A stretch of DNA of 40,240 nt from Clostridia bacterium (GTDB lineage: Bacteria; Bacillota; Clostridia; Oscillospirales; RGIG577), in assembly GCA_017513095.1 (NCBI GenBank), contig JAFWDJ010000027.1:1-40240 (forward strand), read 5' to 3'. Below are positions 12,288 to 16,469 of the stretch, in pieces. The translations under genes were made by a program, and so were the position numbers. Position 1 is the first letter of the stretch; the number at the start of each line of letters is the position of its first letter. The notes below the pieces were generated by a model that did no database searches, was not told the origin of the DNA, and saw only the letters and a program-made list of their open reading frames with translations.

Positions 12288-12316
12288 TTGCATATCATAT
12301 TTTTCCATGATATAAT
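12288..12316 (+). promoter_or_regulatory. Promoter of the TnpB-like nuclease gene
   Basis: TTGCAT (12288-12293), a 17-nt spacer and a perfect TATAAT (12311-12316). AAGGAGGGG lies a few nt before the ATG at 12346. The gene is thus independently and probably constitutively expressed. The rest of 12083-12287 holds no gene I can support. Confidence 0.75.
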
Positions 12317-12345
12317 TTAAGCATACTACAAAAAGGAGGGGTTTT

Positions 12346-13893
12346 ATGGCAAAAAAATCAACGACCGACACCTGCTGTCTTACGCTTCCGCTTATCGTTG
12401 AAAAGTGGCAGTCCGACCGCCTTGAGAAAAGATTTGAGATCGCCAGACAGATTTATAATGCGCTTTTGAATTATGAACTGAAAAAGCTCCGCCGATTGGA
12501 ACAAAGCGAAGATTATAAAAAAACGGAAGCCGAGATAACTCGTCTGCTTAACGAACCGGAAAAGAACCGCAAACTGCTGAAACAGGCATACAAGAAAAGA
12601 GACGACTTACGGGAAAAAGCTAAATTTTCCGAGTATTGTTTTAAATCCGATATACAGCGCTTCTATAAGCATTTTAATGACAACATCGGCTCCAACGTTG
12701 CCATTCACGGCATTGCTCCTCAGGTTTGGGCCGCTTTTGAAAAAATGTTTTACGGCAACGGCAAGGCGGTGCATTTTAAACGGCGCGGGGATATCCGTTC
12801 CGTAAGAGGCTATTCCAATTCCAGAAAGAGCGGCGGCGTTGAGATAATGTTTCGCAAAACGGAAACGGGAGCATATATAGAATGGAAGAAGCTTTATATA
12901 CCCGTAAAAACCGACCGTGACAATGAATACGAAACCGAAATGCTTAAAAACCGCATAAAATACTGCCGTATAGTCAAGCGCCCCGGCAAACGAAAGAGCC
13001 GATGGTACGTCCAGCTTTCCCTTGAGGGAAAACCGACAGTCAAGCGAAACAAGCTTACGGGTGAAATCCTTCACCCCGTCGGCAAAGGCGCAGTCGGCAT
13101 CGACATCGGCCCTCAGACCATCGCATACGCTGCGGATAAAGAGCTCGTACTCACGGAGCTTGCCGACAAGGTCAAAAATATCGAACGCGAAAAACGAATA
13201 CTCCAGCGCAAAATGGACAGAAGCCGGCGCAGCACCAATCCCGATAATTTCACACAAGACGGAATGATAAAGCGCGGCGTTAAGCTTAAATGGAACGAAT
13301 CAAAGCATTATCTGAAATACCGTCGGCAGCTTGCCTTTCTCCAGCACATGCAGGCGGAGACGAGAAAACGGCAGCATATCGAGCTTGCAAATAAAATGAT
13401 GGCTCTCGGAGACGTATTTTACGTTGAAGATATGGCATGGCCTTCTCTGACACGCAGGGCCAAAAAAACAGAAATATCGGAAAAGACGGGCAGATATAAG
13501 AAAAAGAAACGCTTCGGCAAGTCTGTCGGAAACAAGGCTCCCGCCATGCTTATCGGAATATTAAATCAAAAGCTGCTTTCCCGCGGCATGGCGGGAGTTA
13601 TAAAAGTCCCCACCACACTTCGCGCGAGCCAGTATAATCATATTACAAACGACTATCAGAAAAAAGAATTAAGCGAACGCTGGAATGTAATGCCGGACGG
13701 CAGAAAGCTCCAAAGAGATATGTATTCGGCATTCTTATTACAGCATACGAACACAGAATTAAACGGTTTCAACCTTGAATCGCTTAACCGCGATTATGAA
13801 AATTTCGTTTTTCTTCACGACAACGCAATACAAAAGCTTCGTTCCGCACCGAAAACGCCCGCCAGCATGGGCATAGCGCGAAAGAGAAGCTGA
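12346..13893 (+). CDS. TnpB/Cas12-like RuvC RNA-guided nuclease, CRISPR-associated
   Basis: 515 residues. The RuvC-like triad is intact: Asp253 in AVGIDIGPQTIAY, Glu361 in GDVFYVEDM, and Asp458 in LQRDMYSAFL. A basic helical N-terminal half with an OTCas12/TnpB-like wedge precedes it (VAIHGIAPQVWAAFEKM, HFKRRGDI, YVQLSLEGKP). The stretch aligned with the TnpB zinc ribbon (residues 424-458: RASQYNH...LSERWNVMPDGRK) lacks all four Cys, with MPDG replacing CPxCG. It is larger than a standard ~400-residue TnpB and close to compact Cas12 size. There is no TnpA and no Cas1/Cas2/Cas4. A structured RNA region and a CRISPR array follow on the same strand. I infer an RNA-guided dsDNA nuclease of type V-U character. 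The alternative is an IS605-type TnpB beside an unrelated repeat array. Confidence 0.88.
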   Translation: MAKKSTTDTCCLTLPLIVEKWQSDRLEKRFEIARQIYNALLNYELKKLRRLEQSEDYKKTEAEITRLLNEPEKNRKLLKQAYKKRDDLREKAKFSEYCFKSDIQRFYKHFNDNIGSNVAIHGIAPQVWAAFEKMFYGNGKAVHFKRRGDIRSVRGYSNSRKSGGVEIMFRKTETGAYIEWKKLYIPVKTDRDNEYETEMLKNRIKYCRIVKRPGKRKSRWYVQLSLEGKPTVKRNKLTGEILHPVGKGAVGIDIGPQTIAYAADKELVLTELADKVKNIEREKRILQRKMDRSRRSTNPDNFTQDGMIKRGVKLKWNESKHYLKYRRQLAFLQHMQAETRKRQHIELANKMMALGDVFYVEDMAWPSLTRRAKKTEISEKTGRYKKKKRFGKSVGNKAPAMLIGILNQKLLSRGMAGVIKVPTTLRASQYNHITNDYQKKELSERWNVMPDGRKLQRDMYSAFLLQHTNTELNGFNLESLNRDYENFVFLHDNAIQKLRSAPKTPASMGIARKRS

Positions 13894-14088
13894 CAGAAAA
13901 CATCAATGAGGTTCGCACCTCTTATCCGGTCGATTGCCCGACCGAGGCTGTCGCCAATGGCGCCATAGGGCGCTTTGACAGCAGAAGAGCAAGGGAAAAT
14001 AGTCAGCGCGGACTGATGTCCGAAAAGCTATCTACCTGCTCACAGCGATGTGCATAAAATGCGTGTACTGTTTTAGGTTGTTTTTGCC
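13894..14088 (+). ncRNA. Candidate tracrRNA/omegaRNA-like scaffold RNA
   Basis: A non-coding gap between the nuclease stop and the first repeat, dense in hairpins. These are GAGGT-TCGC-ACCTC (13908-13921), CGGTCG/CGACCG (13927-13944), and GCTGTC/GACAGC (13947-13982) enclosing GCGCC-ATAG-GGCGC. Further ones are GGAC-TGAT-GTCC (14010-14021), CACA-GCGA-TGTG (14041-14052) and GCAT-AAA-ATGC (14052-14062). The segment CAGCG-A-TGTGC (14043-14053) is complementary to GCACACGCTG of the repeat, giving 10 pairs with one bulged A: a plausible anti-repeat. TnpB omegaRNAs and Cas12f tracrRNAs lie in this position. The ends are not determined. Confidence 0.7.
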
Positions 14089-14390
14089 GACGCGGCCCGC
14101 ACGGCACACGCTGAGGCAAAGCAGCGCTACGTTGCCGAGGGCAATAACTTCATTACGACGCGGCCCGCACGGCACACGCTGAGGCAAAGCCCTTTGTTGA
14201 TATAATTGCAAGCCCACTTAATCGACGCGGCCCGCACGGCACACGCTGAGGCAAAGACGGGGGACATACGCGGCGGCGAGCCGTTACGCGGACGCGGCCC
14301 GCACGGCACACGCTGAGGCAAAGGCAGTTGGAGAAGCCTATCGTGCGGTCGTCGCCGGACGCGGCCCGCACGGCACACGCTGAGGCAAAG
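14089..14390 (+). CRISPR. CRISPR array, 5 repeats / 4 spacers
   Basis: Five identical 33-bp repeats start at 14089, 14157, 14224, 14291 and 14358. Each begins GACGCGGCCCGC and ends CTGAGGCAAAG. Spacers at 14122-14156, 14190-14223, 14257-14290 and 14324-14357 are 35, 34, 34 and 34 bp, with no resemblance to one another. Spacer 2 is AT-rich and the others are GC-rich. Invariant repeats with regular unique spacers are diagnostic of CRISPR. Plus-strand orientation is inferred from the nuclease, scaffold and anti-repeat order. No obvious AT-rich leader is seen except ACTGTTTTAGGTTGTTTTTG just before repeat 1. Confidence 0.9.
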
Positions 14391-14398
14391 CCTCAGCG
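14378..14398 (+). other. Perfect hairpin capping the array
   Basis: CGCTGAGG at the end of repeat 5, CAAAG loop, then CCTCAGCG outside the array. The 3' flank thus carries an inverted 8-9 nt piece of the repeat. It may fold the last repeat or act as a second anti-repeat if transcribed. Confidence 0.6.
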
Positions 14399-14399
14399 A

Positions 14400-14424
14400 C
14401 GGAATCCGGGGGATTTGAACCCCC
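14400..14424 (-). other. tRNA 3'-end-like remnant (T-arm plus acceptor strand)
   Basis: On the minus strand GGGGG-TTCAAAT-CCCCC (14424-14408) is a perfect T-arm, followed by a 7-nt acceptor strand GGATTCC and G. No D-arm or anticodon arm precedes it, so this is a fragment. tRNA 3' ends are classical integration sites, so it may be one end of a past integration. Confidence 0.5.
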
Positions 14425-14443: not shown

Positions 14444-14480
14444 ACACAAAAAAGGCCGAACGTTCCCGTTCGGCCTTTCT
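14444..14480. repeat. 37-bp direct repeat with embedded terminator, copy 1
   Basis: Identical to 16433-16469. It contains the near-palindrome AAAGGCCGAACG-TTCC-CGTTCGGCCTTT, a terminator usable on either strand. The two copies bracket the HD/YwgA gene pair. Confidence 0.85.
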
Positions 14481-16432: not shown

Positions 16433-16469
16433 ACACAAAAAAGGCCGAACGTTCCCGTTCGGCCTTTCT
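16433..16469. repeat. 37-bp direct repeat with embedded terminator, copy 2
   Basis: Same sequence as 14444-14480. Here it directly follows the prophage amidase gene and serves as its terminator (GGCCGAACG-TTCC-CGTTCGGCC then T-run). It ends the long late operon. Confidence 0.85.

Follow-up and report, generated by a model that had tools for sequence, protein, structure and literature searches.

The systems called TranC, reportedly described in 2025, are said to be intermediates between transposons and clustered regularly interspaced short palindromic repeats (CRISPR), with a TnpB-like fold, a CRISPR array, and a guide split into a trans-activating CRISPR RNA (tracrRNA) and a CRISPR RNA (crRNA). 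In TranC, crRNA and reRNA are both said to guide cleavage. Roughly 50 TnpB–CRISPR events had reportedly been found by 2023. About 50 such events are also mentioned in a classification of 2025 (PMC12669027). Here we describe a locus from a gut-type Clostridia bacterium (order Oscillospirales; assembly GCA_017513095.1, contig JAFWDJ010000027.1, our contig C5); the window analysed is this contig over its whole length of 40,240 nucleotides (nt). On its plus strand, a gene for a TnpB-derived RuvC nuclease (12346–13893), a non-coding RNA (about 13924–14088) and a CRISPR array (14089–14390) follow one another. The locus resembles TranC in its TnpB-like fold, its array and its apparent division of the guide into tracrRNA and crRNA. 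From sequence comparisons, we consider it very probable that this is a TnpB-derived, TranC-like CRISPR interference system with a single effector, in which an ancestral omega RNA has been split in two. The ancestor would have been an IS200/IS605 TnpB with a one-piece omega RNA downstream of its gene. That downstream RNA would now act as a tracrRNA, its 3′ part forming a duplex with the repeat portion of every crRNA; the crRNAs would be expressed from the adjacent array and processed, probably by RNase III, and the nuclease would use the split guide to find phage DNA beside a target motif and cut it with its RuvC site. Directly supported within this proposal are the components, their co-occurrence, the co-variation of tracrRNA and repeat, descent from IS605 TnpB, the homology of the RNA scaffold and the phage match of one spacer.

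Relatives of the locus were drawn from several sources: six loci came from genome contigs, 51 from viral contigs, and the others from 394 genomes of the host order and 391 of the class. A check proposed by the first-pass annotation, the joint presence of array and gene in related genomes, gave a positive answer. The gene, the RNA and an array with diverged repeats recur in other Clostridia, and arrays with a period of about 67 nt lie 3′ of the gene in L002, L003, L007, L008, L011, L012 and L089. In a maximum-likelihood tree of 50 rows, the 13 repeat-bearing loci form a single clade (ultrafast bootstrap 100, SH-like approximate likelihood ratio test 99) nested among 37 array-less IS200/IS605 TnpB proteins, and the array-less group falls on the opposite side of the clade's branch in 100% of bootstrap trees. 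Left out of this tree, the second of two, were the most distant rows and L014, which had joined the clade on a long branch in the first. The array-less relatives stand at about 40–45% protein identity. Many have a Y1 TnpA gene directly upstream and some are present as near-identical repeated units; their left ends are preceded by TTACA, and in many cases the RNA closes with a hairpin and TTCAG, after which comes the guide. The tree, together with the TnpA genes beside array-less relatives, places the effector in a distinct IS605/IS607 TnpB lineage, which is one of the traits ascribed to TranC; the associated array is another.

The window locus shares its fold and RuvC triad with the omega RNA-guided TnpB of IS200/IS605 (ISDra2), and also with that of the IS607 element ISFba1. 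It differs from an IS200/IS605 module in having no TnpA and no visible element ends and in being single copy; where such a module has one guide, this locus carries an array of repeats. The nuclease gene is found once in the 1.99-Mb host genome, where a search with a TnpB model returned no further protein. In agreement with the first-pass annotation, no TnpA was found near the locus; the genome's single Y1 TnpA lies on a different contig, and a motif scan of the stretches around the repeat-bearing loci detected none. Two objections had been raised at the outset, that the same repeats might occur in genomes without the nuclease and that the nuclease might prove to be a multi-copy transposon with no array nearby, and both were followed up in part. 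Across the order (394 genomes), the RNA element is matched strongly in nuclease-carrying genomes alone, and there beside the nuclease gene. In the searched genomes of the repeat-bearing clade the nuclease is single copy, and the multi-copy array-less relatives lie outside that clade.

The stretch between gene and array, predicted from the outset to be structured and non-coding, is structured (z −2.76) and conserved in ten aligned loci. Its core or scaffold occupies 13924–14046 on the plus strand, supported by co-variation and by a covariance model (R1), and its 3′ part (14036–14088, plus strand), supported by cognate duplexes, holds the anti-repeat segments and a terminal UUUUUGCC box. With the named structure, 96% of cells in the core are paired, and 29 double changes are seen against 7.3 in shuffles. 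Among the counted pairs between tracrRNA and repeat, all 8 double changes fall in the anti-repeat helix CAGCG:CGCUG (1.8 in shuffles). Cognate tracrRNA–repeat duplexes total −225 kcal/mol, whereas swapped pairs total −168 (standard deviation 12); none of 200,000 permutations was as low once the conserved end boxes had been removed, and 7 of 200,000 were as low with these boxes kept. Since the RNA covaries strongly and pairs best with the repeat of its own locus, it is assigned, by comparative sequence analysis, as a tracrRNA, and the co-variation and cognate pairing likewise indicate the split guide of TranC. A further pairing, UUUUGCC:GGCAAAG, was set aside: it can nearly always form (97%) but does not co-vary. 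Rfam offered no family for this RNA even at permissive thresholds, and membership of RAGATH-18 is therefore not supported.

The same model links this RNA to transposon guides. Matches to R1 lie a few bases 3′ of the stop codon in about 20 array-less tnpB genes, the best of them with an E value of 2e-8, and a homologous scaffold lies directly 3′ of the gene in the array-less relatives L021–L025 and L082–L120. From these matches we conclude that the core of the tracrRNA is homologous to the scaffold of the omega RNA in array-less IS605 relatives. The RNAs of L012 and L089 are missed by R1 because they are too diverged. The suggestion that the locus is an intermediate between TnpB–omega RNA modules and Cas12 thus gains support from the position of the clade inside the IS605 TnpB lineage, from scaffold homology and from tracrRNA–repeat co-variation.

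The array itself bears out its early description as genuine in appearance, with five identical repeats and four unique spacers. The 33-nt repeat, GACGCGGCCCGCACGGCACACGCTGAGGCAAAG, starts at 14089, 14157, 14224, 14291 and 14358 on the plus strand, and the spacers measure 35, 34, 34 and 34 nt. The repeat is limited to this array: nothing else in the genome matches it at up to 3 mismatches, and a reversed-pattern control gave 0 matches. Elsewhere in the family, L011 has 9 repeats and L012 has 18, with one spacer present twice; the array of L081 is identical to that of L011, and L006 has arrays on both sides of its gene. The locus could be read as a decaying transposon remnant, in which a right end has been amplified into the array, the protein is a TnpB with one omega-RNA-like guide, and the spacers are no immune memory. 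The IS605 lineage would suit this, as would the single-repeat loci L009 and L010 and the several genomes with no detected Cas1, yet we think it very unlikely. Family arrays comprise repeats of about 33 nt, unique spacers of 32–36 nt and up to 18 repeats, and the repeats at the distal end are degenerate, as is usual for CRISPR arrays; moreover, TnpA has been lost, tracrRNA and repeat co-vary, the RuvC residues are retained, and one spacer matches phage.

That spacer, spacer 4 (14324–14357, plus strand), matches a Sak4-like gene of the Faecalibacterium phages FP_Taranis and Pioen, of more phage records and of viral contigs; the closest targets agree at 29–31 of 34 bases, and the matched phages infect the same host order. 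Spacer 4 also matches a similar gene in a genome of that order. The match is flanked on its 5′ side by YTC, a position constrained by a Glu codon, so no protospacer-adjacent motif is derivable. Weaker matches of spacers in the host-order genomes L042 (an acetyltransferase-like gene) and L044 (an asparagine-synthase-like gene), at 28 of 34 bases, were judged to be due to chance.

Several observations weigh against an interference system. The spacer 4 target carries 3–5 mismatches. Several of them fall at variable positions of codons, and the true target may therefore be an unsampled relative. Spacers 1–3 had no target in the viral, host-order genome and plasmid collections searched; the plasmids gave no match to any spacer, and degenerate patterns of spacers 1–3 gave none in viral contigs. 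L009 and L010 have one repeat only and L004 has one before its contig ends, which could mean decay; the contig of L005 also ends just past a single repeat. No clear promoter was found. The promoter named in the first-pass annotation does exist as a −35/−10 pair (12288–12316, plus strand: TTGCAT at 12288–12293, 17 nt, then TATAAT at 12311–12316), but its −35 element matches only 3 of 6 consensus positions and promoter scans of the locus region score no higher than shuffles. Lastly, and in agreement with the early claim, Cas1 was not found in the host genome (97.7% complete), so the locus has no adaptation module of its own in sight to account for its spacers. Cas1 also went undetected in six further genomes, those of L012 (100% complete) and L009 among them; it is present in those of L003, L005, L008, L010 and L011. 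For the window locus, we infer that the spacers were either acquired in trans or already in place when the locus arrived. The L012 array of 18 repeats (L012:3233–4394) is itself an example of a long array within a complete genome with no detected Cas1.

The nuclease has been upheld as a 515-residue RuvC protein of TnpB/Cas12 type. Its open reading frame, supported by profile matches and alignment, is preceded by a ribosome binding site, AAAGGAGG (12333–12340, plus strand), 5′ of the ATG. Alignment with relatives shows an intact RuvC triad, D253 (GIDIGPQT), E361 (VEDM) and D458 (QRDMYS). Zinc-ribbon cysteines are usual in TnpB; they are absent from the window protein and from the aligned array-less relatives, with L024 as the exception. 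The NCBIfam guided-TnpB model scores 63 bits, under its cut-off of 100, and Pfam gave nothing significant for the window protein. An AlphaFold2 model built with 35 aligned sequences (pLDDT, the predicted local distance difference test, 87.2) was compared with a fold library that included the LaTranC entries 9jfq and 9jfo. The closest folds are ISDra2 TnpB (Z 22.6) and then ISFba1 TnpB (Z 20.4).

An alternative role for such a protein is RNA-guided DNA binding that silences rather than cuts, as in Cas12m. One member of the clade makes a cleavage-free role conceivable there: the L006 protein (L006:343–1896, on a contig from a metagenome-assembled genome of Paludibacteraceae) has lost all three RuvC residues, with D changed to V, E to K and D to R. 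For the window protein we regard silencing as most improbable, as D, E and D are kept in it and in the other aligned repeat-bearing members. On the 5.8-kb contig of L006, one array is directly followed by a tRNA-Gln, and genes for an RNase H and a ParA-like protein are present as well; L006 is possibly a plasmid-borne silencing variant.

Among the described type V effectors, the best match in the defence libraries is PADLOC Cas12u4 (type V-U4), with an E value of 4.9e-8; this model recognises 14 of the 15 members of the family. The score is only 30 bits, and since the model recognises array-less relatives as well, it does not tell CRISPR proteins apart from those of transposons. Cas12f (type V-F) is similar as a small TnpB-like effector with a tracrRNA, but its profile match is weaker (E 1.5e-6) and its fold scores (Z about 17 or less) are below those of TnpB. 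LaTranC, the type example of TranC, stands at 15% structural identity and Z 15.4 against the 22.6 of ISDra2 TnpB, and in a 2026 copy of the PDB no LaTranC chain was matched by phmmer up to E 10 or by two profile searches. On this evidence the window system is outside the LaTranC sequence clade. The link to TranC raised in the first-pass annotation holds for lineage, array and apparent split guide, and does not extend to the LaTranC sequence clade.

More speculatively, the clade could represent an undescribed transition from TnpB to CRISPR, with a single origin separate from that of LaTranC. In such a transition the omega scaffold would have become a tracrRNA, spacers would have arrived through the adaptation machinery of other hosts or by another route, and the RuvC-dead member would have made a second switch to silencing; we put this forward only tentatively. 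Were it true, arrays of up to 18 repeats in genomes with no detectable Cas1 would imply that spacers are borrowed or otherwise gained, and such arrays in any case raise the question of where spacers come from. The array-less IS605 relatives with omega RNA, set against the loci with tracrRNA and array, closely bracket the change by which the guide RNA of a transposon gave rise to CRISPR. The proposed splitting of the RNA thereby becomes testable with chimeric guides inside one lineage, and a compact nuclease is offered for study.

The surroundings of the locus bear on whom it serves. Contractile-tail prophage genes (lysin, baseplate, sheath, capsid, portal and terminase) run from 16470 to 40240, toward the contig end, and a tRNA T-arm fragment on the minus strand just 3′ of the array (14401–14424) is possibly a scar of an attachment (att) site. 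The locus might thus be prophage cargo directed against competing phages, not a host system, which would alter its ownership and leave the molecular mechanism the same. A phage-borne member, L089 (L089:1835–7493, on a 90-kb viral contig, with four degenerate repeats), adjoins an integrase, a RecU-like resolvase and a tail gene, and an integrase is near L003. On the other side, L002, L008, L009, L011 and L012 are set amid ordinary chromosomal genes, and the far end of the prophage is beyond the contig, so that inside and outside are indistinguishable for the window locus. We regard cargo status as possible, with ownership by the host the likelier case.

In two congeners the upstream gene is shared (87% and 80% identity) and the CRISPR locus is absent. 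Between the locus and the prophage lie a DarG-like gene and an HD/dGTPase-like gene, flanked by an exact 37-bp terminator-like repeat (14444–14480 and 16433–16469); this pair is a possible inserted defence cassette. Further afield, L121, L124 and L125 on viral contigs (512 kb for L125) share about 30% identity and have array-like repeats of other sequence beside the gene, and are probably separate TnpB–CRISPR associations.
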